34,614 bases of DNA from a virus: the IMG/VR virus record IMGVR_UViG_3300030012_002060, positions 1 to 34,614 of that record, one strand, 5' to 3'. Below are positions 1-34,614 of the stretch, one piece after another. The translations under genes were made by a program, and so were the position numbers. How positions within the stretch are numbered: the stretch's first letter is position 1; every line of letters starts with the position of its first letter. Below the pieces are notes generated by a model, which saw only the letters and a list, made by a program, of their open reading frames with translations, was not told where the DNA came from and did no database searches.

Positions 1-1074
1 CCTGATCGTAATTTTCAAGCAGATCAAATTACTTTTCCGCCAACTGATGATTCTAGTTTGCCAAGTGCAGATCAACACGCAACTATGAAAACTGCTGATG
101 GTGGTTTTTTGTTAGAGGGAAGATTTGATTTTGCAACTATTACAAGTCCTTATCAAGCGGAAGAAATGGCAGAAATTATATTAAGAAGATCTAGAGAAAG
201 TTTAGGATTAAATATCACTGCTGGATTCAATGCTTACAAACTACATATTGGAGATATTGTAAATATTACATTATCTTCATTAGGATTTAATGCTAAAGCA
301 TTTAGAGTAATAGAAATGGTTTTTAATGCAGATTATACAATCACTTTATCATTAGTAGAACATCAAGATAGTTTTTATACATTTGCTACAAAAGGACAAG
401 TAGCTTCAACACCAGCTACAACTCTTCCTGATCCTTTTACAATACAACCACCAGCTTCTGTAACTCTTTCAGATGAATTAATAGAATATGCTGATGGAGT
501 TGTATTAACTAGATTAAATATATTAATTGGAGCATCAACAGATCAGTTTGTTCAATATTATCAAGTGGAAGCAAAGAAAGAGACAGAATCAGATTTTAAG
601 ATTATATCTAGTGGAACACAATTAAATCACGAATTTATAAATGTTGTAGATGATATAACTTATAATGTTCGTGTTAAAGCTATTAATAGTTTTGGAGTGT
701 CAAGTACATATACTTCAGCAAGTAGAAAAATTATAGGTGCTACTGAAATTCCAAGTGATGTAACAGATCTATCAGTATCATTAGTTGGATCTAATCAAAT
801 GGAACTATCTTGGACTCCTGTTCTAGATCTTGATATATCTTGGTATGAAATAAGATTCCAGAATGTTACGAGTGGAGCTACTTGGAACGAAAGTACACCT
901 TTAGCAAAAGTTGTCAGAAGAAAATCAAATAGTCTAGTTGTGAACTTTCAAACAGGAACTTTCTGTGTTAAAGCAGTAGATAAATTAGGTAATACAAGTG
1001 CAAATGCTTCGTTTGTATCAACTAATATTAGTGGTCAAGCAAACTTTGTAAGAACTCAAACAATAAGTGAATAA
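1..1074 (+). CDS. J-like tail tip (host specificity) protein, 5'-truncated by the window
   Basis: This is the C-terminal 357 residues of a siphovirus tail-tip protein of the lambda J type, which sits at the distal tail and helps recognise the host. The reading frame is open from base 1, so the gene begins before the window. The last ~110 residues look like a fibronectin type III domain, with an MELSWTP strand and a later KAVDKLGN segment. It aligns along its whole length with residues 347-703 of the complete J-like protein at 31044-33155, with many synonymous differences, so the two are homologous but not identical copies. It overlaps the next gene by one base (TAATG). Family assignment is by gene order and by similarity to the downstream copy; a partial paralogue or a second strain's allele are both possible. 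Confidence 0.8.
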   Translation, partial: PDRNFQADQITFPPTDDSSLPSADQHATMKTADGGFLLEGRFDFATITSPYQAEEMAEIILRRSRESLGLNITAGFNAYKLHIGDIVNITLSSLGFNAKAFRVIEMVFNADYTITLSLVEHQDSFYTFATKGQVASTPATTLPDPFTIQPPASVTLSDELIEYADGVVLTRLNILIGASTDQFVQYYQVEAKKETESDFKIISSGTQLNHEFINVVDDITYNVRVKAINSFGVSSTYTSASRKIIGATEIPSDVTDLSVSLVGSNQMELSWTPVLDLDISWYEIRFQNVTSGATWNESTPLAKVVRRKSNSLVVNFQTGTFCVKAVDKLGNTSANASFVSTNISGQANFVRTQTISE

Positions 1075-1874
1075 TGGCAGATTTTTTAGGAACAAGAGAT
1101 TCAAATGTAGCAATATCAACTGATAATGCTAATAGAAAAGTATTAATTCTAGATACAATAACTAGATTTGATTCAACTGTTGGAAATTTTGAAAGTGCAG
1201 AAGGACGATTTGATTTAGGCGGTACAGATTCAACATCTAATCCTACTAATTTTGAAGGTAATATTCAAAGCTCAGGTTTTTATACATTTGCTAATACACT
1301 TACTTTTGATGCTATTTATGATGTTACTTTAGGGGGTATTATTGGAATGAGTTCGGAAGATGAATATGATCTATTTGATGAAGGTCGTGGAGCTACATTA
1401 TTTGAAGATGCAAAAGCACCTTTTGATGGTTCTTCGGAAATACAATGTGGAGCAGAAGTACAAGTTGGAGCAAGTACAACAAGTCTTGGAGATGTAACCA
1501 CATTTCAAAAGATTGCCCAACAAAGTACGATCAAAGGAAGATATTTTAAATTTAAATGCAAGATTACGAGTGATGATAATAAAGTTAGAGCAAAAGTACA
1601 CGATTTAAAATTTACTGTTAATTTTGAAAAAAGAACAGAATCAGGTGAGGATATTACTTCTTCAGCATCAGGTACAACTATTACTTTTACAAATGGATTT
1701 TTTGCTACACCTTCAATCGGTATAGCAGGACAAGGACTACAAACAGGCGATTATTTTTCGCTTACAAGTAAGTCAAAAAATGGTTTTACAATTCAATTTT
1801 TTAATAGTAGTAATGTGGGTATTAGTAGAGTTTTTGATTTTCAAGCCATAGGACACGGCTTGTCAAGTACATAA
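1074..1874 (+). CDS. tail-tip-associated protein, 266 aa (upstream copy)
   Basis: The function is not recognised. The protein is 266 residues, rich in Ser, Thr, Phe and Gly with few Lys runs, as expected for a beta-rich tail or fibre component. It has no signal peptide and no membrane segment. A clear homologue of 265 residues lies at 33158-33955, again directly after a J-like gene. Both share blocks such as FDLGGTDSTSNP, SEDEYDLFD, FQKIAQQSTIKGR and KNGFTIQFFNSSNVGIS. Its start overlaps the J stop codon (TAATG), so translation is probably coupled. Conserved position after J suggests a tail-tip or fibre-attachment role; this is inference. Confidence 0.8.
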   Translation: MADFLGTRDSNVAISTDNANRKVLILDTITRFDSTVGNFESAEGRFDLGGTDSTSNPTNFEGNIQSSGFYTFANTLTFDAIYDVTLGGIIGMSSEDEYDLFDEGRGATLFEDAKAPFDGSSEIQCGAEVQVGASTTSLGDVTTFQKIAQQSTIKGRYFKFKCKITSDDNKVRAKVHDLKFTVNFEKRTESGEDITSSASGTTITFTNGFFATPSIGIAGQGLQTGDYFSLTSKSKNGFTIQFFNSSNVGISRVFDFQAIGHGLSST

Positions 1875-1893
1875 AAAGAAGGTATAAAAAGAT

Positions 1894-2211
1894 ATGGCAC
1901 AAGTTTCGGATGTAACATTAGATAACCAAGGATTTGCAAGTTTTAGAACTGAATTGAATAATATTTTAGCGGCAATCAATTCACAACATTTAGGAACTTC
2001 AGCTCCAGGTTCTGTGGCTCAAGGAAGTTTATGGATTGATTCAAGTTCTTCAGGTGTCCTAAAACTTATGATGAATGACGGAACTGATAATGTTGAATTA
2101 TTACAAGTTAATATTTCATCAAATGCAATAACAAGTAATATGTCCGTAACAGGAACAATAACAGAAGCCGACCCAAATGCTATTCCTTTTGCGGTCGCAT
2201 TGGGGAGTTAA
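1894..2211 (+). CDS. small tail/fibre protein, 105 aa (upstream copy)
   Basis: A 105-residue protein of unknown function, preceded by an AGAAGG ribosome-binding sequence. The middle has a motif seen in many phage fibre-region proteins, HLGTSAPGSVAQGSLWIDSS, followed by a repeated-strand segment ending NVELLQVNIS. This type of segment is commonly annotated as a tail fibre or baseplate wedge fragment, with a short N-terminal helix and beta-strands. Its homologue at 33978-34292 (104 aa) shares the same motif and the same C-terminal SNAITSNMSVTGTITE block. The gene sits between two other genes of the duplicated module. The role in fibre attachment is inferred from context only. Confidence 0.75.
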   Translation: MAQVSDVTLDNQGFASFRTELNNILAAINSQHLGTSAPGSVAQGSLWIDSSSSGVLKLMMNDGTDNVELLQVNISSNAITSNMSVTGTITEADPNAIPFAVALGS

Positions 2212-2214
2212 AAT

Positions 2215-2535
2215 ATGGCAAATAATTTTGATGACGCAACAGTAGCAATATCTAATAATAGTTTAACGGATATAGTAACTGCTAGTTCAAAGTCTTTAGT
2301 AATTGCTGGAACATTATGTAATACAGGGGGAACATCAATCAATGTTACTCTTAAAAAGTATGATAATGGTTCAACAACTGCTTTTACGATTTTAAACACA
2401 GTTCCTTTACCAAGTGGCTCTTCATTAGAAATACCTAAAATTGTTTTGAATAGTTCTGATAAAATACAAGCACAATCAGACAATTCTTCAGGTAATCTTA
2501 CAGTTGCGTTACAATTATTAACACAGGTATCGTAA
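2215..2535 (+). CDS. small beta-rich tail protein, 106 aa (upstream copy)
   Basis: A 106-residue protein with no recognised domain name. Alternating hydrophobic residues and an LPSGSSLEIP turn suggest a small beta-sandwich, similar to small phage virion-decoration or tail proteins. The partial gene at 34302-34614 is its diverged counterpart, sharing the (L/V)CNxxxTS(I/V)xxxxK(K/L) and (P/I)SGSSLE-type segments. It lies three bases after the preceding stop and overlaps the next gene by one base (TAATG), so it belongs to the same transcription unit. No catalytic motif is visible. It is probably structural. Confidence 0.7.
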   Translation: MANNFDDATVAISNNSLTDIVTASSKSLVIAGTLCNTGGTSINVTLKKYDNGSTTAFTILNTVPLPSGSSLEIPKIVLNSSDKIQAQSDNSSGNLTVALQLLTQVS

Positions 2536-3833
2536 TGGCTTATATAGGCAGAGTTCCATCAGCAGTTCCACTTGCAGTAAGTGATGTACCTGATTTGCCA
2601 ACAAGCAAAATTACATCAGGAACATTTGCAGATGCAAGAATATCAAGTTCAAGTGTATCTCAACACGCAACAAGTTTTGATGATAACAATATAGTAAATG
2701 ATTTATCTACTTTAGGATTAAGAGTACACACTCAAGAAAATCTTAATGCGTCTAATACTAACTCTGCATCTTTTGATGTATTTCAAGATAGTTCTGGAAT
2801 TACGAATTTAACTGATGCTTCTAGAGATAGTGCAGAGTTTATTTCATGTGTTGGATTAGGCGAACACACAAACGATAGTGATACACAAAGTTTAGTTCAT
2901 TTTAACAATAATGTGACAGATGAAAATTCTAATGTCACTTGGACAAATAACAACGTTACATTTAATAGTTCAATTAAAAAATTTGGTACACACTCAGGTT
3001 CTTTTAATGGTTCTAATGCTTATCTTACAGATGATAGCGGAAATTCGCAATTTTATACTTCAGGCGATTGGACGATAGAAAGTTGGTTTTATTTAACAAG
3101 TGCTTCAAGTGGTCAATCTAATCAAATATTTGAATGGAGTAATGGTAGCACCTCTAAACAAAGTGTTTTATTTGGATATTTAGATCCAGGTAATATGCGC
3201 TATGAAGTTTATGGTGGTTATAGTGGGGGGTGGAGCCTTGATGGAAGTAATTTAAACACAGGAAATAATACTATTAACTTAAATACTTGGCAACATCTTG
3301 CTTTAACAAAACAAGGAAGTACAACAAGATTATATTTAGATGGTGTTCAAAAACAATCAGTAACAACATCATGGAGCTTTTATAACGATACTAATATTGT
3401 AAGTATCGGTGGTATAAATCACGCTTATTTTAATGGTTATTTAGATGAATTTAGATTTTCTCATGTTAATCGTTATCCTGATGGAACAACTTTTACACCA
3501 AATTTAGTTTCAAATGCAACTGGTTCATTTGAAGGTAATGCAATTACAGCAGCATCAACTAACAAAATGGGTGCAGTAATTACATATCAAGATAATGCTG
3601 GAACTAATACTTTAAACACAGATATAATTTTAAAACTTTCAGCAGATAATGGTTCAAACTATTCAACAGCTACACTTACTGCACTTCCAGACTTTGCAAC
3701 AGGAATCAAAATGGCAAAAGTAAATGATTTAAGTGTAACTGCTGGAACTCAACTTAAATACAAAATAGAATTTGCAAATCAGGCATCAGGAAGCAAAGAA
3801 GCAAGAATCAGAGGAGTGTCTTTACAATATTAA
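2535..3833 (+). CDS. tail fibre protein with LamG-like (concanavalin-type) domain, 432 aa
   Basis: Probable receptor-binding fibre. The N-terminus starts MAYIGRVPS, resembling the MSYIGKIPA start of the fibre gene at 5117, which suggests a shared virion-attachment segment. Residues ~115-325 have the layout of a LamG/concanavalin-like jelly roll: an LVHFNNNVTDE strand, WTIESWFYL, the WQHLALTK strand, LYLDGVQ and a late GYLDEFRFSHVNRY segment. The last ~100 residues (from GSFEG) closely match the end of the next gene, and residues ~58-100 also match it, so the two fibres are paralogues with conserved flanks and a more divergent centre. LamG-type folds bind carbohydrates, so surface glycan recognition is likely but inferred. 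Confidence 0.8.
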   Translation: MAYIGRVPSAVPLAVSDVPDLPTSKITSGTFADARISSSSVSQHATSFDDNNIVNDLSTLGLRVHTQENLNASNTNSASFDVFQDSSGITNLTDASRDSAEFISCVGLGEHTNDSDTQSLVHFNNNVTDENSNVTWTNNNVTFNSSIKKFGTHSGSFNGSNAYLTDDSGNSQFYTSGDWTIESWFYLTSASSGQSNQIFEWSNGSTSKQSVLFGYLDPGNMRYEVYGGYSGGWSLDGSNLNTGNNTINLNTWQHLALTKQGSTTRLYLDGVQKQSVTTSWSFYNDTNIVSIGGINHAYFNGYLDEFRFSHVNRYPDGTTFTPNLVSNATGSFEGNAITAASTNKMGAVITYQDNAGTNTLNTDIILKLSADNGSNYSTATLTALPDFATGIKMAKVNDLSVTAGTQLKYKIEFANQASGSKEARIRGVSLQY

Positions 3834-3834
3834 T

Positions 3835-5115
3835 ATGGCTATAATTAAATTAAATAACAACGCATTAACAAGTGTTACAGAACTTCCAAGTGGAGTAGGT
3901 GCTGACCCTAATGTCAAAACAGATTTAGCAAGATTAGGTTTAAGAGTTTTTACAAATCAAAATTTAGTAGCAACAAATTCTAATTCTGCAAGTTATGATG
4001 TTTTCCAAGACTCTTCAGGAATTCAAAATTTGACGACTTGTTCAAGAAATTCAAGTGAATTTATGGAATCTAAAACAACTACTCAAACAGATGTAACAAA
4101 TGGAAGTACAACATTTACAGACGGATCAAGTGAGGGTCATACTATCACATCTTTTGCATCACAATGGAATACAGCAAATGGTGGTGCTTTAGGTGGTAGT
4201 GCTGGTATTTATCAAAGAGTTGGTGGAAGTAATGGATATTTAAATATTGCAAATAATAATAGTTTTATACATCAATTTGGTGATAGTGATTTTACAATAG
4301 AATTTTTTCAATACGAAACAGCAAGTAGTTCTCATAGAGGAATAATGGGTTTTTCTGATAGTGGTGTTCAACAATATCAAGTTGCAACTAATCCTACAAT
4401 TTCAATTAGATGGTGGGCTAGTGATGATGGTTCAAATTGGGATCATGGTAACGGAGATAGAATTTCCGATGATAATATGAGTGGACCAGGAAATAGTGCA
4501 TGGTCACATTGTGCTGTTGTAAGAAGTGGAAGTAATTTTTATGGTTATAATCATGGATCAAGACGAGCAAGTTGGTCAGGATCAGGTGTCTTAAATGATG
4601 AAAACTCAGATTGGAGACTTGGAGCAACTGGAAATGTTGGAGATGTTCATCATGGATATATAGACCAAGTTAGAATTTCAAATATTGCAAGGTACACAGG
4701 AGGAACATACACGATCCCTTCAGGAACAAGTGGTTATACAGATGATGCAAATACAAAATTAATTATTGGTTCAAGATTTAATCCATTATCTACAAGTGCA
4801 ACAGGAAGTTTTGAGGGAGTAGATGTAACCCCAGCTTCAGCTGTTACAAAAATGGGTGCAGTTATTACTTATGAAGAAACAGGAACAAACACTTTAAATA
4901 CAGATATAGTCTTAAAATTAAGTGCTGATTCAGGAAGTAATTTTACTACTGCAACATTAACTGCGTTACCAGATTTTGCAAGTGGTGTGAAATGTGCTAA
5001 AGTTAGTGATGTAACTGTAACATCAGGAACACAATGTACTTATCAATTAAATTTTGCAAATCAATCAGCAGGAGTTAAAGAAGCAAAAATAACAGGAATA
5101 TCATTACAATATTAA
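3835..5115 (+). CDS. tail fibre protein with LamG-like domain, 426 aa (paralogue of the preceding gene)
   Basis: Second LamG-type fibre. The chosen start is the ATG one base after the previous stop (TAATATG); an in-frame ATG 63 bases upstream would run into the preceding gene and has no support. Residues ~25-70 (DLARLGLRVFTNQN to the FMES segment) and the last ~100 residues from GSFEG match the gene before it, while the central ~230 residues are diverged but keep jelly-roll landmarks such as DFTIEFFQYET, WSHCAVVR and GYIDQVRISNIARY. It looks like an old tandem duplication with a re-diversified binding domain. Two receptor specificities, or a hetero-oligomeric fibre tip, are both possible. Confidence 0.8.
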   Translation: MAIIKLNNNALTSVTELPSGVGADPNVKTDLARLGLRVFTNQNLVATNSNSASYDVFQDSSGIQNLTTCSRNSSEFMESKTTTQTDVTNGSTTFTDGSSEGHTITSFASQWNTANGGALGGSAGIYQRVGGSNGYLNIANNNSFIHQFGDSDFTIEFFQYETASSSHRGIMGFSDSGVQQYQVATNPTISIRWWASDDGSNWDHGNGDRISDDNMSGPGNSAWSHCAVVRSGSNFYGYNHGSRRASWSGSGVLNDENSDWRLGATGNVGDVHHGYIDQVRISNIARYTGGTYTIPSGTSGYTDDANTKLIIGSRFNPLSTSATGSFEGVDVTPASAVTKMGAVITYEETGTNTLNTDIVLKLSADSGSNFTTATLTALPDFASGVKCAKVSDVTVTSGTQCTYQLNFANQSAGVKEAKITGISLQY

Positions 5116-5116
5116 T

Positions 5117-6250
5117 ATGTCTTATATAGGTAAAATACCAGCAACAGGAAACTTTGTAAAACTAGACGCAATAAGTGTAGTCAATGGTCAAGCATCTTAC
5201 ACTATGCAAAGTGGTTCTGTTAATTTTACCCCAGAGAGTGTAAATCACATGTTGGTCTCCCTTAATGGTTTGATTCAAAATCCTGGATCTTCTTTTACTA
5301 TTTCAGGAAGCACAATTACATTTGCATCAGCTTTAAGTACAGGCGATGTTATAAATTTTATAATGGTCTATGGAAATGTTTTAGATATAGGAACACCAAG
5401 CGACAATACAGTTTCAACTACTAAATTAGTTGATACTTCTGTTACTGCTGGAAAACTAGCAACAGATTCAGTTATAGAAGCTAAAATACAAAACGATGCA
5501 GTTACAAGAGATAAAATAAATGCAATATCAACTTCATCAGCACCAAGTTTTGAAGCAAAAGGAACATCAGGTCAAACTGATGGATACATTCAGCTTAATT
5601 GTGAACAAAACAGTCATGGAATAAAATTACAATCGCCACCTCATAGTGCTGGACAATCTTACAAAATTATTTTTCCATCAGGAAATATAACTGCTGGTAA
5701 ATTTTTAAAAGTAGATTCAGTATCAGGTTCAGGAACAACAGGTGTTGGTACTATGACTTTTGCTGATGGTGGAGGTTTTACTCTTGGAACACCAGTAACA
5801 GGGAGTGGTTCTAATATTACTTTTACAGGAATACCATCAACTGCTAGATTAATAATAGTAAGTTTTGATAACATCTCACATAATCATGGTAGTAATTCTG
5901 ATTTTAAAGTCATACTTGGAGATAGTGGAGGTCTAGAAACATCAGGATATACTTCAAATGTAATTTATACAGGGTCGGGAAACGATCAAGGAGGAGGATC
6001 ATACACAAACGGACATACTTTTTATTATCAAGCTGGTGCTTCTACTACAATTTATGGATCAGTTATTATTAGTTGTGTAGATGCTAGTAATAACAAATGG
6101 TCTTTATTATCTCATGCTGGAACTTCAGCAAATTATATTAGTGATGCCGCAGGTTCAAAAACTTTATCAGGAACATTAACACAAGTACAAGTAATGTCAG
6201 GTGCAGGTGGTGGAATAGATGCTGGAACGGTAAATATTATGTATCAATAG
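5117..6250 (+). CDS. tail fibre protein, 377 aa
   Basis: Phage fibre of a common marine-phage style. The N-terminal ~90 residues form a small beta domain (VSLNGLIQNPGSSFTISGS and INFIMVYG). Residues ~95-140 contain repeated short units of the form T(x)KL-V-D-TSVTAGKLATDS and VIEAKIQNDAVTRDKI, typical of trimeric fibre shafts. A C-terminal Gly/Ser-rich beta domain follows, probably the distal binding head. It begins one base after the previous stop and is followed ten bases later by a small acidic gene with a GGAG ribosome-binding site. The repeats support a trimeric fibre; the receptor is unknown. Confidence 0.8.
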   Translation: MSYIGKIPATGNFVKLDAISVVNGQASYTMQSGSVNFTPESVNHMLVSLNGLIQNPGSSFTISGSTITFASALSTGDVINFIMVYGNVLDIGTPSDNTVSTTKLVDTSVTAGKLATDSVIEAKIQNDAVTRDKINAISTSSAPSFEAKGTSGQTDGYIQLNCEQNSHGIKLQSPPHSAGQSYKIIFPSGNITAGKFLKVDSVSGSGTTGVGTMTFADGGGFTLGTPVTGSGSNITFTGIPSTARLIIVSFDNISHNHGSNSDFKVILGDSGGLETSGYTSNVIYTGSGNDQGGGSYTNGHTFYYQAGASTTIYGSVIISCVDASNNKWSLLSHAGTSANYISDAAGSKTLSGTLTQVQVMSGAGGGIDAGTVNIMYQ

Positions 6251-6260
6251 GAGTTAAATT

Positions 6261-6473
6261 ATGAAAGAATTAATTGTAAATTTACAAACAGGTGAACAAA
6301 ATTTAGTTGAGTTAAGTGAAGAACAAGAAGCTAAATATGATGCTATGAAAGAAGAAATACAAGAAAAGTATGATGAACAAACAGAAAAAAATAATAAAAA
6401 AGCATCAGGCAAACAAAAGCTAAAAGATTTAGGATTAGATGACGATGAGATCAATGCTCTACTAGGAGTCTAA
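6261..6473 (+). CDS. small acidic helical protein, 70 aa
   Basis: A 70-residue protein of unknown function, rich in Glu, Lys and Gln, with a predicted coiled coil through residues ~20-50 and a C-terminal LKDLGLDDDEINALLGV amphipathic helix. It has no signal peptide or membrane segment. It has a good ribosome-binding site (AGGAGTTAAATT before the ATG) and lies between the last fibre gene and the endolysin, one base before the endolysin start. A fibre chaperone or assembly factor would fit the position, but nothing in the sequence proves it. Confidence 0.65.
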   Translation: MKELIVNLQTGEQNLVELSEEQEAKYDAMKEEIQEKYDEQTEKNNKKASGKQKLKDLGLDDDEINALLGV

Positions 6474-6474
6474 A

Positions 6475-6969
6475 ATGCAATTATCAAAACATTTTAAATT
6501 AGAAGAATTTACAAAATCTCAAACTGCAATTCGTAAAGGTATTAACAATGAGCCAGGATCAGGAGATATAAAAAATTTAGAAAATCTTTGTTATGAAATT
6601 CTTGAACCTATCCGTGCAAAATTTGAGAAACCAATAACCATTACTAGCGGATATAGGTCAGAGGAACTCTGTGAAGCAATAGGTTCAAAAAAAACTTCTC
6701 AACATGCAAAAGGTCAAGCCGCGGACATAGAACTATTTGGAATACCTAATATTAAGGTTGCATATTGGATACAAAACAACGTAGATTTTGATCAGTTAAT
6801 TTTAGAGTACTGGACCCCAAAAAATAAGAATGATATAAATAGTGGATGGATTCATGTCAGTTATAATGAAAAAGGAGCTAATAGAAAACAAGTTTTAACC
6901 TTTGATGGTAAGACTTATGAAAATGGCTTACCTGATATGAAATGGCAAGATGGAGAGGTAATAGCATAA
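6475..6969 (+). CDS. endolysin, M15-family peptidase (M15_3 type)
   Basis: Probable peptidoglycan-cleaving endolysin. The protein is 164 residues, the usual size for single-domain M15 zinc peptidases. It shows the family layout: an N-terminal FKLEEFTKS segment, TITSGYRSEEL around residues 54-65, the zinc motif SQHAKGQAAD with His77 and Asp84, and GWIHVSY with His127 as the third metal ligand. Such enzymes cut D-amino-acid-containing peptide bonds in the cell wall. There is no signal peptide, so it should need a holin to reach the periplasm; holin candidates lie at 7848-8045 and 9037-9414. Its stop overlaps the next start (TAATG), tying it to the cationic mini-gene cluster. Confidence 0.88.
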   Translation: MQLSKHFKLEEFTKSQTAIRKGINNEPGSGDIKNLENLCYEILEPIRAKFEKPITITSGYRSEELCEAIGSKKTSQHAKGQAADIELFGIPNIKVAYWIQNNVDFDQLILEYWTPKNKNDINSGWIHVSYNEKGANRKQVLTFDGKTYENGLPDMKWQDGEVIA

Positions 6970-7067
6970 TGGCACTAACAAAAAAACAAAAGAAACTACC
7001 AATAGCTTTACAAAAAGCTATACTTAAAAAACAAAAACAAACTAAAAAAACAAAGAGGAGGAAATAA
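6969..7067 (+). CDS. very short basic protein, 32 aa
   Basis: A tiny gene encoding 32 residues, about half of them Lys or Arg and the rest mainly Gln, Leu, Ala and Thr. It has essentially no acidic residue. It begins inside the endolysin stop codon (TAATG) and ends with an AAGAGGAGGAAATAATG sequence that provides a strong ribosome-binding site for the following gene. A single amphipathic helix is likely. The coupling on both sides makes it a real reading frame rather than chance, although its function is unknown. Confidence 0.6.
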   Translation: MALTKKQKKLPIALQKAILKKQKQTKKTKRRK

Positions 7068-7156
7068 TGCCTAGAGGTGTTGGATATGGGTCAACAAGAC
7101 CTATGAAAAAAAAGAAAAAAAAGAAAAAAACAAAAATGAAACCAAGTAGAAGATAA
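7067..7156 (+). CDS. very short poly-lysine protein, 29 aa
   Basis: A 29-residue product starting MPRGVGYGSTRPM, followed by eight consecutive lysines and a short basic tail ending KPSRR. It is preceded by an excellent AGGAGGAA ribosome-binding site and begins in the previous stop codon (TAATG). The following gene also begins in its stop codon (TAATG). The PRG(V/M)GYG-type head with a Lys-rich tail recurs, from memory, in marine phage genomes as an unannotated small protein. Nucleic-acid or lipopolysaccharide binding is plausible by charge alone. Confidence 0.6.
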   Translation: MPRGVGYGSTRPMKKKKKKKKTKMKPSRR

Positions 7157-7338
7157 TGGTTAAAGTTGCATCTATAAAAAATATAATAAAAGACCTTAAA
7201 CCAAGACAACAAAAAACCATGAGGTCTCACGCTAGACATCACAGTCTTAAACACATGCGATCAATGGCTTTAGCCATGAAAAAAGGTGCAACTTTTCAAA
7301 CCGCACACAGAAGAGCAATGAGGAGTGTAGGTAAATGA
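7156..7338 (+). CDS. basic protein, 60 aa, His/Arg/Lys/Met-rich
   Basis: A 60-residue protein with two predicted helices: IKNIIKDLKPRQQKTMRSHARHH, and MRSMALAMKKGATFQTAHRRAMRSVG. The HHSLKHMRSMALAMKKG-type segment is strongly basic and amphipathic. No Cys, signal peptide or catalytic motif is present. It is translationally coupled upstream (TAATG) and overlaps the next gene (ATGA). It could bind DNA in the capsid or membranes at lysis; there is no direct evidence for either. Confidence 0.7.
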   Translation: MVKVASIKNIIKDLKPRQQKTMRSHARHHSLKHMRSMALAMKKGATFQTAHRRAMRSVGK

Positions 7339-7448
7339 GTGGATTTACAACAAGCACAACATTAAGGGAGATGATAAATAAGTTTCCCATGAGAAAAAGA
7401 AAAAGAAATGTCAAAAAAAAGAAAAAAAAGAAGAGTAGCAAGAGATAA
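7335..7448 (+). CDS. very short basic protein, 37 aa
   Basis: A 37-residue product beginning MSGFTTSTTLREMINKFPM, with a C-terminal run of Lys/Arg (RKRKR, seven lysines, then SSKR). Its start overlaps the previous stop as ATGA. Its last 41 bases are shared, in a different frame, with the first codons of the next gene, and both frames encode Lys/Arg there because the DNA is almost pure adenine and guanine. The N-terminal half is not low complexity, which supports a real gene, but confidence is limited by size. Confidence 0.5.
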   Translation: MSGFTTSTTLREMINKFPMRKRKRNVKKKKKKKSSKR

Positions 7449-7844: not shown

Positions 7845-7847
7845 ATT

Positions 7848-8045: not shown

Positions 8046-8047
8046 AT

Positions 8048-8076: not shown

Positions 8077-8084
8077 CGAAGTAT

Positions 8085-9414: not shown

Positions 9415-9449
9415 TAAAAATTTAAGTTCATATATGTTAAGAACAAAGT

Positions 9450-26669: not shown

Positions 26670-26677
26670 GAGAAAAG

Positions 26678-26903: not shown

Positions 26904-26927
26904 AAAAGCTAATTCATAGGAGGAAAA

Positions 26928-27314: not shown

Positions 27315-27320
27315 TAATTT

Positions 27321-27674
27321 ATGTCAATAATAGATCGAGTCAAAACACATTTTGATTCTCTAAAGACTATAACTATTGAAGTTCCAGAGTGGGAAGATGA
27401 AGAGGGAAAACCCTCTATATTCTATTCCGAGCCATTAACTCTTGAAGAGAAAAACATAATCTTTAAAAAGTCTAATAATTTTACTGACTTAACCGTACTT
27501 GTTGATTTATTGGTAATGAAACTTCAAGTTAAGGATGAGAAGGGTAATCTTAAAAAAGCGTTTAAATTAGAAGATAAATTTGAATTAAGACGTAAAGCTG
27601 ACTCTAATGTAATCGCTGGTATCTCAAATAAAATACTAGCTGATGCAAATTACGAGGAAGCTGAAAAAAAGTAA
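27321..27674 (+). CDS. tail assembly chaperone, short form (lambda G-like), 117 aa
   Basis: The zero-frame product of the two-form tail chaperone gene. It is 117 residues, with a beta-type start (TITIEVPEWEDEEGK), the SEPLTLEEKNIIFKKS segment and helical C-terminal half ending SNKILADANYEEAEKK. The gene lies between the tail tube and the tape measure, the standard position of lambda G-type chaperones, which keep the tape measure soluble during tail assembly. The last codons GAA AAA AAG contain a slippery heptamer used to make the longer form at 27321-27844. Confidence 0.8.
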   Translation: MSIIDRVKTHFDSLKTITIEVPEWEDEEGKPSIFYSEPLTLEEKNIIFKKSNNFTDLTVLVDLLVMKLQVKDEKGNLKKAFKLEDKFELRRKADSNVIAGISNKILADANYEEAEKK

Positions 27675-27844
27675 ATAGCGACCCTAACATTCAATCTATT
27701 TTAGTGGTCGCTGATAGACTAAAACTTCCAATACAAAAAGTTTTAGATATGCCTATACTTCATTTTAATCTATGGTTAGCTTACTTGAAAAAAGAACAAG
27801 AAGAGTATAAAAACCAAGAGAACATAGCAAAGTATAAGAAGTAA
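27321..27844 (+). CDS. tail assembly chaperone, -1 frameshift fusion (lambda GT-like), 174 aa
   Basis: The long form made by -1 ribosomal frameshifting at A AAA AAG (27665-27671), just before the zero-frame stop. After the shift, reading continues from base 27671 for 57 codons to TAA at 27842-27844. The extension (VNSDPNIQSILVVADRLKLP onward, ending IAKYKK) is protein-like, with FNLWLAYLKKEQEEY, and has no ATG start or ribosome site of its own. Its end is four bases before the tape measure start. The G/GT ratio is conserved in long-tailed phages and is needed for tail assembly. Coordinates span both frames; residues 1-117 are zero frame. Confidence 0.85.
27665..27712 (+). other. programmed -1 frameshift signal
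   Basis: Canonical slippery heptamer A AAA AAG at 27665-27671 in the correct codon phase, a five-base spacer, then a stem of AGCGACC (27677-27683) and GGTCGCT (27706-27712) with a 22-base loop. The zero-frame stop TAA lies directly after the heptamer. Spacing and order match known bacterial and phage -1 frameshift cassettes. Confidence 0.85.
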
Positions 27845-27848
27845 ATAA

Positions 27849-29693
27849 ATGGCGAATCAAACACTTAAAATAGATGTAGTAGCACAAGATAAAACCAAAC
27901 AAGCTCTTAATAGAGTTCAAGGTGGTTTGCAAAAAGTAAGACAATCAGTATTTAATTTAAGAAATGCTTTTATAGGTCTTGGTGCTGGTGTAGTTGTAAA
28001 AGGTTTTTTTGATGCTGGGATACAAATAGAAAATCTTGGTGTTCAATTAAATGCTCTTACAGGATCAGCTGCTAATGGACAAAAGGCACTAAAACAAGTT
28101 ACTGATTTTGCATCAGGTACTCCATTTGAATTAAAAAATATTCAACAAGGTATTACTGCATTAGCAACAGTAAGAGAGAGAGCTGAAAAACTAGGTATAT
28201 CTTTTGATGAGCTTCTAAAAATAACTGGTAACACAGCCACAATTTTAGGTGGAGATTTTGCTTTAGCATCCTTACAAATACAAAGATCATTTAGTGCAGG
28301 TATTGGAAGTGCCGAGTTATTTAGAGAACGTGGTGTAAGAGCAATGGCAGGGTTCAAAGAAGGAGTCCAAGTAAGCGTAGATGACTCTATTCTTGGTTTA
28401 TCAAAGGCATTTGGAACTGGTGGTAAATTTGGAAATCTTATAGATGATTTAAGTAAAACTTTATTTGGAACAATATCAAATTTAAAAGACGCATTTTTCT
28501 TATTTCAAGTAGAAGTATCAAAAGGGTTTTTTGAAGCACTTAAAAAAAATCTTGGAGATTTAAAGAAAACTGTTGAAACCAATAGAGAATCAATAAACGA
28601 ATTTGGACAAACAATAGGTACAGGATTAAGTAAATTAATTCAAGGAACTGCAGCTACAGTTAAATTTTTAAAAGAAAATTTAGATTTATTAATAGCTGGT
28701 TTTAAATTTTTCATAGCTCTTAAATTAGTTAAGTTTTTTGCTGGTCTTACAATAGCAATTAAGGGAACAAATTTAGCAATGCTTACTTTTAATAAAACAG
28801 TAAGAAAAAATCTTTTGATAGGTTCAATAGCTCTAATAATTTCTCAAATAGATATTTTTATTAAGAAAATAAAAGAACTTACTAGAATAGGTAGTGATGA
28901 CATAGAAGATCAATTAGCTCCTGGTTTAAAATTGATGACTGTAATTGATCGTTTTGGAAATGAAATCAAAATTGTTGTTAAAGATTTAGAACATGCCTCA
29001 AACGTAATTGAGGTTGGTATGTTGCCTCCTATTAAAGAAGCAGAAACAAGATTCCAAAAAATGTTACGTCATATTAAAGAAACAATTAAAAAGTTTGAGG
29101 ACTTAAACAAAGATTCTTTAGAAAAAGCAAAAGAGAAGTTTAAAAATATAGGGGATACTTTAGCAAAAGCTGCGAATGAAAGTATTAAAAAATTAAGCGA
29201 TACTTTAGCTAGATCTGTAATTATGGGAGAAAATTTAGCAGATGCCTTTAGAAAAATGGCACAAGAATTGGCAGTAAAAGTATTAAGTGCAGTTATTGAA
29301 ATTATAGCAAGAAAAACTGTTGAACTTATGATTGAGAAATTAATTACAAGGGAAAAGAAACAACAAAGAGAACATGCTGAAGCAACTGCCATGTTATCTG
29401 GTAATCCATTAGGTTTTTTATCATTCTTTGGTGCATTTGCACATGGAGGAGCTGTATCAAAAGGAAAACCAATTATGGTTGGAGAACGTGGTCCAGAGAT
29501 GTTTGTTCCAAATAGTACAGGGCAAATAGTTCAAAATGCAAGAGGTCATAGTGGTGGACCAGTTAGTGTTAATTTTAATATTAATGCTATCGACTCTACA
29601 GGGTTTGAGGAAGTGTTAATTAATAATCGAGGAACTATTACAGCTATTATAAACAATGCTTTAAATGAACAAGGGAAAGCGAGTCTAGTATAA
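27849..29693 (+). CDS. tail tape measure protein, 614 aa
   Basis: A 614-residue tape measure, the helical ruler that sets tail length. The N-terminus (TLKIDVVAQDKTKQALNRVQGGLQ) is typical, followed by hydrophobic segments (FIGLGAGVVVKGFF, LLIAGFKFFIALKLVKFFAGLTIAI) and long helices. The C-terminus shows the family ending GKPIMVGERGPEMFVPNSTGQIV. At roughly 1.5 angstrom per residue this would give a tail of about 90 nm, rather short for a siphovirus (rule of thumb only). No lysozyme or peptidase domain is apparent. It starts four bases after the frameshifted chaperone stop. Confidence 0.9.
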   Translation: MANQTLKIDVVAQDKTKQALNRVQGGLQKVRQSVFNLRNAFIGLGAGVVVKGFFDAGIQIENLGVQLNALTGSAANGQKALKQVTDFASGTPFELKNIQQGITALATVRERAEKLGISFDELLKITGNTATILGGDFALASLQIQRSFSAGIGSAELFRERGVRAMAGFKEGVQVSVDDSILGLSKAFGTGGKFGNLIDDLSKTLFGTISNLKDAFFLFQVEVSKGFFEALKKNLGDLKKTVETNRESINEFGQTIGTGLSKLIQGTAATVKFLKENLDLLIAGFKFFIALKLVKFFAGLTIAIKGTNLAMLTFNKTVRKNLLIGSIALIISQIDIFIKKIKELTRIGSDDIEDQLAPGLKLMTVIDRFGNEIKIVVKDLEHASNVIEVGMLPPIKEAETRFQKMLRHIKETIKKFEDLNKDSLEKAKEKFKNIGDTLAKAANESIKKLSDTLARSVIMGENLADAFRKMAQELAVKVLSAVIEIIARKTVELMIEKLITREKKQQREHAEATAMLSGNPLGFLSFFGAFAHGGAVSKGKPIMVGERGPEMFVPNSTGQIVQNARGHSGGPVSVNFNINAIDSTGFEEVLINNRGTITAIINNALNEQGKASLV

Positions 29694-30313
29694 TGAGTGG
29701 TGCATTTCCAATATCATCTGCAGCTTTTGAAACACTTGGTATAAAAACTATTCAACCAACAATAATTTCAAAAACTGATAGTGGCAAAAGATTAACAAGA
29801 CAAATTCAAGGTCAAAGATTTGCATTTACTGCTTCTATTATAACAGCAAAACGAAGTGATGTTTATGGAGAACTTATGGCTTTTATAATAAAACAAAGAA
29901 GTTCAAAAGAAAATTTTACAATTATTCCTCCCGAGTTAGAAGATGCAAGAGGTGTAGAATCAGGTACGTTAGCAGTTAATGGTTCTCACACTTCTGGCGA
30001 TACAACAATAGCCATTGATGGTTTTGCATCTGATACAGCTAATAGATTACGAGCTGGAGATTTCATAAAATTTAATGGACATACAAAAGTCTATATGGTT
30101 GTCTCTGATGTAACAAGTTCATCAAACGCAGCAACAGTAACTATTGAACCACCTTTAGTTTCTAATTTATCTGATGACGAAGTTGTTAGTTATGATAACA
30201 TTCCATTTACTGTTTATCTAACTAATGATATTCAAGAATTTGGCGTAGTAGGTGCTGATAAAGATGGTAACCTGTTATACAAATTTGAATTAGATGTCGA
30301 AGAAGCGTTATAA
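29693..30313 (+). CDS. distal/minor tail protein, 206 aa
   Basis: A 206-residue, beta-rich protein directly downstream of the tape measure, where siphoviruses encode the distal tail protein or minor tail protein M/L equivalent. The N-terminal 85 residues are followed by a second beta domain (about 90-165) with a repeated strand-turn pattern, including RLRAGDFIKFNGHTKVYMVV, which resembles an inserted barrel of the kind seen in tail hub proteins. No enzymatic motif is visible. It is coupled with the tape measure gene (TAATG). Assignment is by position. Confidence 0.65.
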   Translation: MSGAFPISSAAFETLGIKTIQPTIISKTDSGKRLTRQIQGQRFAFTASIITAKRSDVYGELMAFIIKQRSSKENFTIIPPELEDARGVESGTLAVNGSHTSGDTTIAIDGFASDTANRLRAGDFIKFNGHTKVYMVVSDVTSSSNAATVTIEPPLVSNLSDDEVVSYDNIPFTVYLTNDIQEFGVVGADKDGNLLYKFELDVEEAL

Positions 30314-30512
30314 AATAAGATATTATATCAATGTTGATGTATTAGCTGAAGAAATTGTTGATGCTAATGAGATTGATGTAGAAAATTTAAAATTGAATCA
30401 AAAGGATTTTCCTAGTAAAAACGCTAAATGGATTATTTATGATGATATGAAAATATCAAGAAAAACAATAGAGGACTATGACGAGATCACTAACAACAGC
30501 GATAAAAAATGA
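30294..30512 (+). CDS. small protein, 72 aa, in the minor tail cluster
   Basis: A 72-residue protein that overlaps both the preceding and following genes (20 and 35 bases). Its sequence is polar with many Asp, Glu, Lys and Ile, in a strand-helix-strand pattern (YKIRYYINVDVLAEEIVDAN, AKWIIYDDMKISRKTIEDYD). No family is recognised and the ribosome-binding site is weak. The double overlap and non-repetitive composition support it as a real gene; its role in tail assembly is unknown. Confidence 0.6.
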   Translation: MSKKRYKIRYYINVDVLAEEIVDANEIDVENLKLNQKDFPSKNAKWIIYDDMKISRKTIEDYDEITNNSDKK

Positions 30513-31044
30513 ACTTGCTACAGGAAACATACAACCTGTTCATTTACTTACTATTGGGTTTTCAACACCACAAAATTTAACTGATTGTACTTTTGATTTA
30601 ACATCTTCTATATCTGGCTCTAGTGTAACTTATAGTTCAAGTTCTTTTCTCTTAGGTGTAAGTGAATTTACAGAAGAGACCGATATTACAAAAGCGTCTA
30701 TAACAATTCAATTAAGTGGAGCTAATCAAACATTTATTGCTTTAGTTTTAAATGAAAATGTAGTGAATGATAGTGTTACTATTTTTAGAGGTTTTTTAGA
30801 TAGTAGTAATGCCCTTATTAGCGACCCTTTTTTATTATATAAAGGTCAAATTGATACTTTTGACATTCAAGAAACAGAAAACTCATCTATTGTAGCTTTA
30901 GGTGTAGTTTCCCACTGGGCTGATTTTGAAAAACAAAATGGCAGAAAAACAAATAATACTTCTCAACAAAGATTTTTTGCAAATGATGTAGGCATGGATT
31001 TTTCAAGTCAAACTGTGCAAGATATTAAGTGGGGTAGAACATAA
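30478..31044 (+). CDS. minor tail protein (DUF2163-like position), 188 aa
   Basis: A 188-residue protein. The N-terminus RSLTTAIKNELATGNIQPVHLLTIGF and the later SSFLLGVSEFTEETDITKASITIQLSG pattern match what I recall of the GTA gp13/DUF2163-type hub proteins, with strands VFRGFLD and DTFDIQETENSS. The final part, ENGR-type, lies before the J-like tip. It probably belongs to the baseplate hub joining the tube to the tip. It shares one base with the J-like gene (TAATG). Confidence 0.65.
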   Translation: MTRSLTTAIKNELATGNIQPVHLLTIGFSTPQNLTDCTFDLTSSISGSSVTYSSSSFLLGVSEFTEETDITKASITIQLSGANQTFIALVLNENVVNDSVTIFRGFLDSSNALISDPFLLYKGQIDTFDIQETENSSIVALGVVSHWADFEKQNGRKTNNTSQQRFFANDVGMDFSSQTVQDIKWGRT

Positions 31045-33155
31045 TGGGTTTAAGAAAATTTTTTAAAAGTGTTACTAAAATATTTAAACCAATTATAAAG
31101 ATAGTAAGTAAAGCTATATCTTGGCTTGTTCCTAAACCACCAGAATTACCAGATTTTGGAACTAGCGAATTTGACGATTTTGAAAAAGGTATTTTAGTAA
31201 ATAAACAAAGTAATGATGCTTCAATCCCTGTAATTTATGGCACAAGACTTGTCGGAGGCACTCGGGTTTTTCTGCAAACTAGTGGTACAGATAATAATTT
31301 TTTATACATAGCTCTTGTATTATGTGAAGGCGAAATCAATGGAATTACAGAAATAAGAGTAGATGACAAGGTAGTTACTTTTGATGGAAGCATGGCTGAT
31401 AATACTCAAAGGAGTGTTGCTAGCAGTGACTCTAATTTCTATAAAGATGGAGTAAGTTATATCACGATTGAACCTCATTTTGGAAGTGATAGTCAAACTG
31501 CATCAAGTTTATTATCAACACTTTCTAATTGGGGAACAAATCATAGGTTACGAGGTGTTTGTTATTTAGCTTTACGTTTTAAATGGAATCAAGATATTTT
31601 TGGTTCAATACCAAAAGTTCAAGCTATTGTTCAAGGTAGAAAAATATCTACTTTCGATAATAGCTCGAATGAAACTACAAATCAATTTAGTTCAAATCCT
31701 GCTTTTTGTTTATTAGACTATTTAAGAAATGAAAGGTTTGGAAAAGGTTTAGCACTTACTGACATTGATATTCCAAGTTTTTTTCAAGCATCACAAGTAT
31801 GTGAAACACAAGTAACACCTTTTTCTGGTGGCTCTCAAATAAATTTATTTGATTGTAACGCTGTTCTTGATACCTCAAAAAAAGTGATAAATAATGTAAG
31901 AGATTTAATAAAAGGTATGAGAGGATTTATGCCTTATGTTGAAGGTAAATATAAATTAATTATAGAAACAACAGGTACAGCTTCTATTACTTTAAATGAA
32001 GATGATATTGTTGGTGGATACACTTTATCGAGTCCAAGTAAAAGCGATAAATATAATAGAGTGATCGTTTCATATATTAATCCAGATCGTCAGTTCCAAG
32101 TTGACGAGACTCAATTTCCACCAATAGATGATAGTTCTTTACCTAGTGCTGATCAACATAATACAATGAAAACAGCTGATGGTGGATTTTTATTAGAAGG
32201 TCGGTTTGATTTTAAAACATTGACCAACACCTATCAAGCGACAGAAATGGCAGAGATTATTCTCCGTAGAAGCCGAGAACAATTATCTTTAGACATTAAT
32301 GTTGGGTTTGATGCTTATGATCTTGCTATTGCTGATATTGTAAATATCACTCATTCATCTTTAGGTTTTACAAATAAACCATTTAGAGTCATGGGTATTA
32401 CTTTTAATAGTGATTATACAATACAATTAAGTTTAGTTGAACATCAAGACTCTCACTATACTTTTGCAACGCAAACACAAGCTCCAACTATACCATCTAC
32501 ATCATTACCCAATCCTTTTGTTATTCAACCACCAGCTGGCATAACTTTAAGTGATGAAATGATTGAATATGCTGATGGAGTTGTGATTACAAGATTAAAT
32601 ATAGTTATTACTCAATCCCCTGACTCTTTTGTTCAATACTATCAAGTTGAAGCAAAAAAAACGTCAGAGGCAAATTTTAAAATTATTTCTAGTGGTACTG
32701 AATTGAGACATGAATTTTTAAACGTAATTGATGGAGAAAATTACACAGTCCGTGCTAAATCAATCAATGCTCTAGGAGTTTCAAGTTCTTTTGTAAGTGC
32801 AACTCACACAGTTGTTGGTGCAACTGATACACCACAAGATATAACAGATCTATCTGTATCAATGGTAGGTTCAAATCAAATGGAGCTGTCCTGGACCCCC
32901 GTTACTGATCTGGACATAAGTTTTTATGAGGTAAGATACCAAAACGTAACAAGTGGTTCTACATGGAACGCTAGTACACCTTTAGCAAAAGTTGTAAGAC
33001 GTAAATCAAACTCTTTAGTTGTGAATTTTTTACAAGGAACATATTGTATAAAAGCAGTAGATAAGTTAGGAAATAGTAGTGCTAATGCTAGTTTTGTAAC
33101 GGCTAGTATTAGTGGACAACAAAATTTTACACAAACACAAAGTTTTAGCGAGTAA
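31044..33155 (+). CDS. J-like tail tip / host specificity protein, 703 aa
   Basis: The complete tail-tip protein. Its N-terminal ~40 residues are basic and amphipathic (LRKFFKSVTKIFKPIIKIVSK), followed by the tip core (VNKQSNDASIPVIYGTRLVGGTRVFLQTSG near 55-85) and the GYTLSSPSKSDKYNRVIVSYINPDR hub segment. Residues ~590-700 form a fibronectin type III domain (MELSWTPVTDLDISFYEVRYQN). These proteins recognise the receptor and open the route for DNA. Residues 347-703 have a diverged counterpart at window positions 1-1074. Length is shorter than lambda J but usual for marine phages. Confidence 0.85.
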   Translation: MGLRKFFKSVTKIFKPIIKIVSKAISWLVPKPPELPDFGTSEFDDFEKGILVNKQSNDASIPVIYGTRLVGGTRVFLQTSGTDNNFLYIALVLCEGEINGITEIRVDDKVVTFDGSMADNTQRSVASSDSNFYKDGVSYITIEPHFGSDSQTASSLLSTLSNWGTNHRLRGVCYLALRFKWNQDIFGSIPKVQAIVQGRKISTFDNSSNETTNQFSSNPAFCLLDYLRNERFGKGLALTDIDIPSFFQASQVCETQVTPFSGGSQINLFDCNAVLDTSKKVINNVRDLIKGMRGFMPYVEGKYKLIIETTGTASITLNEDDIVGGYTLSSPSKSDKYNRVIVSYINPDRQFQVDETQFPPIDDSSLPSADQHNTMKTADGGFLLEGRFDFKTLTNTYQATEMAEIILRRSREQLSLDINVGFDAYDLAIADIVNITHSSLGFTNKPFRVMGITFNSDYTIQLSLVEHQDSHYTFATQTQAPTIPSTSLPNPFVIQPPAGITLSDEMIEYADGVVITRLNIVITQSPDSFVQYYQVEAKKTSEANFKIISSGTELRHEFLNVIDGENYTVRAKSINALGVSSSFVSATHTVVGATDTPQDITDLSVSMVGSNQMELSWTPVTDLDISFYEVRYQNVTSGSTWNASTPLAKVVRRKSNSLVVNFLQGTYCIKAVDKLGNSSANASFVTASISGQQNFTQTQSFSE

Positions 33156-33157
33156 AT

Positions 33158-33955
33158 ATGGCAAATTTTTTAGGTACTAGAGATGAAAATGTAGCATTAA
33201 CATTTGATTTTTTAGATAGACTATCTTTGACACTAGATACTATCACTAAATTTGATGACCCTCCTGTGAATTTTGACCAACCAGAAGGTAATTTTGATCT
33301 TGGAGGAACTGACTCTACTTCTAATCCAAATCACTTTAATTCAAATGTTCAACCAAGTGGAACGTATGACTTTAGCAACACTTTTGACGCTGGAGATGTA
33401 TTTGATGTAACTTTAGGTGCTATTGTAAGTATGACAAGTGAAGATGAATACGATTTATTTGATAGTGGGCGTGGAGCTACACAGTTTGATAATGCTAAAG
33501 CTCCCTTTGATGGAAGTCCTGAAATAAATTGTGGAGCTGAAATACAAGTTGGTTTTGATGATACGAGCTTTGCAAATATTACTAGCTTTCAAAAGATAGC
33601 TCAACAAAGTACAATTAAAGGTAGGTTTTTTAAATTTAGATGTAAGCTAACAAGTGATGACAATAAAGTAAAACCTAAAGTGCATGATTTAACTTTTACA
33701 GTCAATTTTGAGAAAAGAACAGAGACAGGAGAGGATTTAGTAGCAAGTGCGAGTGGAACTACAATAACATTTACAAATGGGTTTTTTAGGACTCCAAGTG
33801 TCGCTATTATGGGTCAAGGCATGAGTGCTGGAGACTTTTTTACGTTATCAAGTAAGACTAAAAATGGTTTTACAATTCAATTTTTTAATAGTAGTAATGT
33901 AGGTATTAGCAAAACTTTTGATTTTCAAGCAACAGGAATTGGCTTGAAATCTTAA
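33158..33955 (+). CDS. tail-tip-associated protein, 265 aa (downstream copy)
   Basis: Homologue of the protein at 1074-1874, about two thirds identical by eye, in the same position after a J-like gene. Differences are concentrated in residues ~14-50 and 70-95, while the block from FQKIAQQSTIKGR to the end is well conserved. It has no recognised domain, no signal peptide and no membrane segment. It has a TAAAT spacer before its ATG and a following AGGAGTAAAAGGA ribosome-binding site for the next gene. It probably belongs to the tail tip; the exact role is unknown. Confidence 0.75.
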   Translation: MANFLGTRDENVALTFDFLDRLSLTLDTITKFDDPPVNFDQPEGNFDLGGTDSTSNPNHFNSNVQPSGTYDFSNTFDAGDVFDVTLGAIVSMTSEDEYDLFDSGRGATQFDNAKAPFDGSPEINCGAEIQVGFDDTSFANITSFQKIAQQSTIKGRFFKFRCKLTSDDNKVKPKVHDLTFTVNFEKRTETGEDLVASASGTTITFTNGFFRTPSVAIMGQGMSAGDFFTLSSKTKNGFTIQFFNSSNVGISKTFDFQATGIGLKS

Positions 33956-33977
33956 TTAAGTAGGAGTAAAAGGAATC

Positions 33978-34292
33978 ATGGCACAAGTAAATGACGTTAA
34001 TCTGGCAAATATTTCATTCGCTAGTTTTAGAAGCGAATTAAACTCAATATTGGCAGCGATAAATTCTACTCATTTAGGAACATCAGCTCCAGGATCAGTT
34101 GCACAAGGAACTATTTGGGTTGACAGCAATACAAGTGGAAAATTAAAAGTTAAGATCAATGACGGATCTGATAATGTAGAATTATTTGAAATTGACATAT
34201 CTTCAAATGCAATAACAAGTAATATGTCAGTTACAGGAACAATAACAGAAAGCGACCCTAATGCTTTACCATTAGCGATAGCATTAGGATAA
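33978..34292 (+). CDS. small tail/fibre protein, 104 aa (downstream copy)
   Basis: Homologue of the protein at 1894-2211, with the same HLGTSAPGSVAQGTIWVDS motif, the NVELFEIDIS strand and the SNAITSNMSVTGTITE block. It lies in the same order as in the upstream copy. The function is unknown, probably fibre attachment or tail tip. Ribosome-binding sequence AGGAGTAAAAGG precedes it. Confidence 0.75.
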   Translation: MAQVNDVNLANISFASFRSELNSILAAINSTHLGTSAPGSVAQGTIWVDSNTSGKLKVKINDGSDNVELFEIDISSNAITSNMSVTGTITESDPNALPLAIALG

Positions 34293-34301
34293 GGAGAATA
34301 A

Positions 34302-34614
34302 ATGGCAAATACTTTTAAAGTCAAAACAAATGCTGCGATGCCTGCAAGTGCAGGAACACCATTAACACTTTACACAGGAAAAAGTGCTACTACAACTGTG
34401 GTAATTGGTTTAGTTCTTTGCAATGTTCATTCAACATCAGTCACAGCTTCAGTTAAATTGGTATCAAACACATCAGATACAGAAACTAATGAAGATGTAT
34501 TATTAGTAAAAGATGTATCAATTCCAGCTGGAAGTTCGTTAGAGCTTTTATCAGGTGGTAAAGTGGTTATTCAAGCAACTGATGTAATACAAATTGATTG
34601 TTCAGTTGCAAATA
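34302..34614 (+). CDS. small beta-rich tail protein, 3'-truncated by the window (downstream copy)
   Basis: The first 104 codons of a gene homologous to 2215-2535. It carries the matching VLCNVHSTSVTASVKL and IPAGSSLELLSGGKVVIQATD segments. The gene is cut by the window end, roughly a dozen codons before the end expected from its 106-residue counterpart. It has AAGGAGAATAA as ribosome-binding site. Downstream genes are not visible; in the upstream copy the next gene is a LamG fibre. Confidence 0.7.
   Translation, partial: MANTFKVKTNAAMPASAGTPLTLYTGKSATTTVVIGLVLCNVHSTSVTASVKLVSNTSDTETNEDVLLVKDVSIPAGSSLELLSGGKVVIQATDVIQIDCSVAN

Follow-up and report, generated by a model that had tools for sequence, protein, structure and literature searches.

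The DNA analysed here (the window) spans an entire virus record, 34,614 bases long and with 31.7% G+C; it is most likely a contig of an uncultured ocean Pelagibacter phage akin to HTVC026P. Its genes run, from left to right, through the last part of a host-specificity gene J, three small tail genes, two lectin-type fibre genes, a third fibre gene and an endolysin, and further on through the terminase, portal, capsid and tape measure genes to a complete J, which is again followed by three small tail genes (Table 1). The nearest described phages in a search of the phage record collection are the Pelagibacter phages HTVC026P (MN698240), HTVC202P, HTVC112P and HTVC111P, with DNA identities of 75-77% in the first-aligned pieces and 66-73% in wider alignments. 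The likeness to HTVC026P comprises both gene order and DNA similarity over the head and tail genes: from terminase to tail, 36% of a 24.6 kb query was matched in pieces at 75.1%, and over the last 8 kb of the window 77% was covered at 71.4%. All four isolates share the order terminase, portal, capsid, tape measure, J, fibres, endolysin and phosphodiesterase, the endolysin being an M15 peptidase in the isolates, with a lysozyme instead in HTVC111P. Their G+C content (30-31%) is close to that of the window, and all are units of about 32 kb. They differ from it in their fibre/lectin and early genes and in having a single J, whereas J sequence stands at both window ends. SAR11 is the probable host of the window phage, given the records of these isolate relatives.

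Table 1. Genes and segments of the window, with the matches that bear on them.
Feature	Position	Strand	Match or remark
J (central tail fibre / host specificity), copy A, C-terminal 357 codons	1..1074	+	phrog_31 E 6e-36; contig starts inside gene
Small tail gene 1, copy A, 266 aa	1074..1874	+	69% aa to 33158-33955
Small tail gene 2, copy A, 105 aa	1894..2211	+	75% aa to 33978-34292
Small tail gene 3, copy A, 106 aa	2215..2535	+	phrog_26609; 38% aa to right copy
Stretch joining copy-A arm to backbone B; place not fixed	2535..6462	+	identity drop to copy-A relatives
Lectin-type fibre gene 1, 432 aa	2535..3833	+	Pfam Laminin_G_3 E 2.5e-18
Lectin-type fibre gene 2	3835..5115	+	start by eye: internal ATG of ORF 3772-5115
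Tail fibre gene 3, 377 aa	5117..6250	+	phrog_18673 E 3.7e-55
Backbone, strain B	6463..34606	+	near-identical relatives tile all except 12536-13090
Endolysin	6475..6969	+	phrog_894 E 6.6e-49; aligned with HTVC026P peptidase M15 gene
Terminase large subunit	18939..20225	+	phrog_2 E 5.7e-48
Portal	20188..21594	+	phrog_145 E 3.9e-63
Major capsid protein	24129..24986	+	phrog_267 E 4.9e-28
Tape measure protein	27849..29693	+	phrog_973 E 4.5e-13; HTVC026P match covers annotated tape measure gene
J, copy B, complete, 703 aa	31044..33155	+	phrog_31 E 3.9e-87; aa identity 100% L007, 97% L029
Small tail gene 1, copy B	33158..33955	+	pair alignment with copy A
Small tail gene 2, copy B	33978..34292	+	pair alignment with copy A
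Small tail gene 3, copy B, cut by contig end	34302..34614	+	phrog_26609; closest among examined loci L140, 90.4%

A first-pass annotation of this DNA had pointed out that 1-2535 and 32082-34614 hold the same four genes (the C-terminal part of J followed by three small genes) in matching order but not identical, and had counted by hand 39 matches in the first 60 bases. Both points are borne out, since the recount gave exactly 39 and a blastn search of the window against itself (cut-off E 1e-3) aligned 1-2229 with 32082-34316 at 71.05% identity over 2249 columns, with 17 gap openings and E = 0. An identical terminal redundancy is thus ruled out: the ends are 71% alike and have no exact overlap. 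At the gene level, the pairs agree at 70.9% of nucleotides and 72.3% of amino acids for the J C-terminus (357 codons), 70.1% and 69.4% for the second gene, small gene 1 (265 codons), and 72.8% and 75.0% for the third, small gene 2 (104 codons). The fourth pair, small gene 3, is a weak match (48.6% and 38.0% over 92 aligned codons), and despite this both of its copies match phrog_26609. The comparison of codon divergence that the annotation had proposed gave a dS between the copies of 1.14-1.30, near saturation; dN was 0.77 in the fourth pair and 0.20-0.26 in the other three. With dN so far below dS, at least the first three pairs look like working genes under purifying selection and, dS being near saturation, the two versions reflect an old divergence between working genes and not sequencing error. 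The contig ends truncate both copies: of the 703 codons of J, the left copy is missing the first 346, and the right small gene 3 breaks off at codon 104, the version in locus L007 having 116 codons. On the genome of HTVC026P both ends map to the same single stretch, the left one to 22,887-25,120 (73.9%) and the right one to 22,899-25,414 (71.5%).

How many J genes does a phage of this group carry? The search with the J protein was made over 50 records (the window, the four isolates and 45 IMG/VR contigs), 38 of which matched J and 12 of which did not. Every J-matching record other than the window (37 of 37) has a single J, counting as one the two match stretches of HTVC112P, which lie in one reading frame, and with G040 contributing only a partial J at a contig end; G037, a relative of 35.9 kb, also has one J. 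The wider search drew on IMG/VR viral contigs and the phage record collection, each protein scan covering at most the best 80 loci. Among the matches listed, there was no second J C-terminus in 158 loci examined (a set that includes two window pieces, refetched pieces and overlapping loci of the same contig) and no second J in 191 J loci, 152 of them distinct by DNA. One J each is also the count in the 25 loci (21 records by contig name) that extend from a tail gene upstream of J as far as the endolysin. Starting from the other side, none of 181 loci carrying small gene 1 showed a J downstream of it or a second copy of small gene 1, among the matches listed, and there was room after small gene 1 of at least 2.5 kb in 108 of these loci and of at least 5 kb in 64 (79 and 45 distinct by DNA, respectively); overlapping loci of the same contig are also contained in the 25-locus and 181-locus sets. 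Thus, no J follows a first adsorption module in the loci examined. In the window itself one copy lies at each end, and whatever joins the contig ends lies outside the sequence.

The length of the contig is informative as well. The isolate genomes (HTVC026P, 202P, 112P and 111P) measure 31,577-32,480 bases, with one J in each of the four, and the distance from copy to copy in the window is 32,081 bases, that is, one turn of about 32.1 kb, which matches the isolate sizes and therefore points to one genome of the HTVC026P group. Since the window shows J sequence twice, a unit of about 32 kb with one J holds only if the overlap consists of two alleles.

Furthermore, different segments of the window are near-identical to different genomes, as would be expected of a chimera. 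The left arm, copy A, has its closest relatives in L087 (97% of nucleotides over 1-2825) and in L088/L089 (94% over 1-2719), and in the latter the J of copy-A type comes after tail genes that are only 70-75% like those of the window. The remainder, backbone B, is matched by L383 (95% over 6463-6998), L141 (99.3% over 6898-12535 and 96-97% over 13091-14652), L385 (97.3% over 14179-20901) and L384, which reaches into copy B (98.4% over 18894-34001). Copy B is also matched by L383, at 97.8% over 30668-34606, after which this contig continues with its own fibres and then an endolysin. The J tree gives the same picture: in a midpoint-rooted tree of 103 distinct J C-termini, including the two window copies and leaving out partial sequences and identical ones (e.g., that of L007, identical to copy B), copy A stands beside L087/L089 and copy B beside L029/L008, their common ancestor spanning 83 of the 103 distinct sequences. 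A recent duplication within the lineage of this phage would make A and B sisters, and a tree that places each nearest to the J of other phages argues against it. A possible assembly link between L383 and L141, which both end at window 6898-6998, was left unused because they have no exact overlap.

The place where the A arm passes into backbone B can be narrowed down in part. Identity to the copy-A relatives is 94-97% at 2401-2550 and falls to 76-83% at 2551-2700, 51-81% at 2701-2850 and about 40% from 2851 onwards, which would favour a join within the first 300 bases of 2535-6462, covering the start of lectin gene 1 and its N-terminal segment; the position is not fixed. L087 becomes similar again at the end of lectin gene 1 (94% at 3601-3750 and 89% at 3751-3900), a region conserved in many relatives. 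For the stretch 2826-6462, the lectin 2 and fibre 3 proteins were each used in a scan, and among the matches listed there was no near-identical relative; the best reached 69% of amino acids along all of lectin 2 and 80% along residues 1-220 in fibre 3. With no near-identical kin there and with the likeness to L087 at 3601-3900, the lectin genes could be those of strain A, which leaves the join unfixed.

At the opposite end, the cut copy of small gene 3 is 90.4% identical to L140, 82.5% to L093 and 77.7% to L383. Although L383 matches the window without a difference between about 33150 and 34050, its small gene 3 is a different one and its fibres are others, so strain B itself varies there. A pattern search for the continuation of the right end returned eight contigs, of which L140 was useful and the other seven aligned at 64-85%. 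In L140, eight bases separate small gene 3 from a lectin 1-like gene, after which come a lectin 2-like gene and, further on, the endolysin, and in L093 a lectin 1-like gene also comes next after small gene 3. This order indicates that the natural continuation of base 34614 is a lectin gene; with L140 as a guide, a lectin start (e.g., that at 2535) would be expected about 46 bases past 34614. The true ring would then close the right end to about base 2535, giving a genome of about 32.1 kb with one module.

Taken together, the single module of the relatives, the one-turn length, the separate near-identical kin of each arm and the neighbour of small gene 3 in L140 and L093 speak for alleles and not for a duplication. 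The contig is thus very probably slightly more than once round an ordinary phage genome of about 32.1 kb, its ends being two strains' alleles of a single tail-tip module. In such a scheme, the genome would be a circularly mapping unit of that size with one adsorption module (J, three small genes, lectins/fibres and endolysin), in a population holding at least two versions of the part from J to small gene 3. The assembly path would start inside version A, go through the lectin genes and once round the backbone into version B, and stop about 46 bases before version B would meet the lectin gene again, so that the ends would represent two strains' alleles of one locus and not two loci in one genome. 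The join would be the work of the assembler and not of natural recombination, and both strains are assumed to have been present in one sample.

Unit-length relatives provide a measure of how unusual such ends are. All eight IMG/VR records of at least 31 kb with J in the 50-record search, the window apart, were compared end to end. In four of them (G007, G020, G034 and G043, of 31.1-33.3 kb) the ends overlap by 98-127 bases at 99-100%; in G020 and G043 alone the overlap is exact up to the final base. Two more have a diverged end overlap, G005 over 251 bases at 96.4% and G025 in pieces of 80-96% that are out of register, and the other two have no clear overlap (none in G026, scattered short matches only in G037). 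A diverged end overlap is not unique to the window, whose 29% over 2.2 kb is the largest seen. Besides the unfixed join and the variation of strain B at small gene 3, two observations weigh against the allelic reading: this 29% divergence is far above that of G005, and none of the contigs examined has an exact overlap of at least 25 bases with either window end, so there is no direct assembly link.

Among the alternatives, the one that survives best, itself unlikely, is that the two versions were joined in nature, as a recombinant concatemer from a co-infected cell cut so that the packaged molecule carries versions A and B at its opposite ends. Terminal-redundancy heterozygotes are known from phage T4, and a unit length plus 2.5 kb with different end alleles is the layout expected of them; the four unit-length relatives that close on themselves would also suit circular permutation or terminal redundancy. 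As in the T4 heterozygotes, such a molecule would differ in allele between its two ends. However, this would need a packaged molecule and headful cutting, and nothing in the data requires a packaged heterozygous molecule, which would moreover be visible in a consensus contig only if it were common or read singly. A broader form of this idea, with recombination during co-infection so frequent that packaged genomes often bear a different adsorption module at each redundant end, would have the consequence that a single burst could release particles of either or mixed host specificity, and it seems distinctly improbable.

A real tandem duplication, with two adsorption modules in a row and two usable receptors, had been one of the three readings offered by the first-pass annotation, and of these it is the join of two strains of a genome of about 32.1 kb that finds support. 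The contig does carry both modules, dN is well below dS in the first three gene pairs, the lectin genes next to them are a true tandem pair, and the size of G037 suggests that genomes of the wider group can be larger. Nonetheless, the count of J genes in close relatives, which the annotation had suggested as a check, gave one in all 37 others, G037 included; no J follows small gene 1 in the 181 loci listed, including the 108 with room for it; and the tree sets A and B each nearest to other phages' J instead of to one another. In addition, once the 346 codons that J copy A lacks are added to the 34.6 kb, a duplicated genome would come to no less than 35.6 kb, more than any of the four isolates, and it is a lectin gene and not J that comes after the right-hand type of small gene 3 in L140 and L093. 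Each J version being single in its near relatives, and no J-J tandem being present in the records and loci examined, two receptor-binding sets in one genome are highly improbable, and the duplication is rejected on the J counts, the neighbour tests and the J tree. Finally, if two prophages lay side by side and the contig reached from one tail region into the other, diverged tail modules spaced by a full genome would likewise result. This has a negligible probability and is rejected, since no integrase was found among 39 distinct window proteins (of 63 listed) searched against PHROGs and the genes between the two copies come in the order of HTVC026P, an isolate that is a single genome long.

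Chimeric contigs arising from co-existing related viruses are a documented error of virome assembly in the account of Roux et al. (Roux et al. 2017, PMC5610896). The chimeras described there have in common with the window two contig segments with separate near-identical kin, and co-existing related viruses as the cause; the window differs in that the probable chimera appears as a diverged end overlap, as also in G005 and G025. A simple check follows for other contigs: a diverged end overlap, together with a one-turn length equal to the genome size of the relatives, points to a contig that goes once around a genome present as a mixture of strains. Genome-length contigs such as G005, G025 and the window would escape a test for identical end repeats. 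For the phage itself, a false lead, that of a small phage with two tail-tip sets, is removed.

The biological interest that remains is that of a known pattern, in which J and the lectin/fibre genes vary among phages with a near-identical backbone. In the work on metaviromic islands, molecular-recognition genes are given as the most frequent identifiable genes of these islands (Mizuno et al. 2014, PMC3909814). The likeness lies in the prominence of tail fibre, lectin-like and carbohydrate-binding genes where otherwise similar phages vary: L383 and the window are 97.8% identical up to 34606 and 95% from 6463, with unlike fibres in between. The islands are defined by read under-recruitment (Mizuno et al. 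2014, PMC3909814), the window region by sequence comparison. Similarly, Skadi-type pelagiphages are described as having a hypervariable region that includes a lectin-domain protein (PMC10504331), and a Sargasso Sea study calls long reads critical for recovering such regions (PMC11094077). The window fits this published picture of variable host recognition.

A further feature of the region, absent from the first-pass annotation, is that lectin genes 1 and 2 (2535-5115) form a true tandem pair. Their products agree at 60% in an N-terminal segment of 55 aa, at 36% in the middle and at 69% over the 100 aa of the C-terminal end; lectin gene 2 has no Pfam match of its own. The only other match of the window to itself at the cut-off used pairs 3564-3840 with 4849-5122.

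The two lectin-type genes that follow the left-hand tail module of the window represent a real tandem pair, whose members share an N segment of 55 aa (60%) and a C end of 100 aa (69%), the middle between these common ends being less alike (36%). The C end is present as two copies 1.1-1.3 kb apart in 23 of the 42 loci that carry it, and as one copy in the other 19, with the proviso that some of these loci may overlap. This layout, a variable middle flanked by constant ends, would favour recombinational swapping. In each of the loci L301-L304, one gene matches the N segment of lectin 1 (window 2676-2847), nearly all of lectin 2 (window 3934-5119) and also the C end of lectin 1. Such a gene looks like a collapsed form of the pair, or like a single gene from which the pair arose.

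The tail module at the right end was compared with L383, a near-identical relative of the window backbone. Identity is complete from about 33150 to 34050 and then drops to 74-75% in the third small gene. This sharp drop, in window 34150-34614, looks like a recombination boundary within the module. Ahead of J, the spacing between the J query region and the tail gene upstream of it falls mostly into two groups (~1.7-1.9 kb and 2.2-2.3 kb). In L003, the stretch concerned is 21400-21813. Directly upstream of J, the Pelagibacter phages HTVC026P, HTVC111P and HTVC112P have an annotated acyltransferase gene (lysine or RTX toxin acyltransferase); at this spot, the HTVC202P annotation has no acyltransferase gene. 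In the window, a search for ORFs of at least 60 aa between 30478-31044 and J returned none.

Two unit-length relatives, G005 (L386/L387) and G025 (L392/L393), have diverged overlapping ends, and would therefore both escape a test that looks for identical repeats at the ends.

Finally, a glycosyltransferase gene and, ~1 kb beyond it, a DNA methyltransferase-like gene suggest DNA modification in the window phage. Compared with the window, the near-identical L141 has 0.8 kb of additional DNA immediately ahead of the glycosyltransferase gene.

Lectin-type and putative DNA modification genes of the window
Feature	Position	Match
Lectin 1	2535-3833	
Lectin 2	3835-5115	
TET-associated glycosyltransferase	14178-15035	PF20691 (E 2.1e-37); phrog_842
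DNA methyltransferase-like gene	15966-16532	phrog_359
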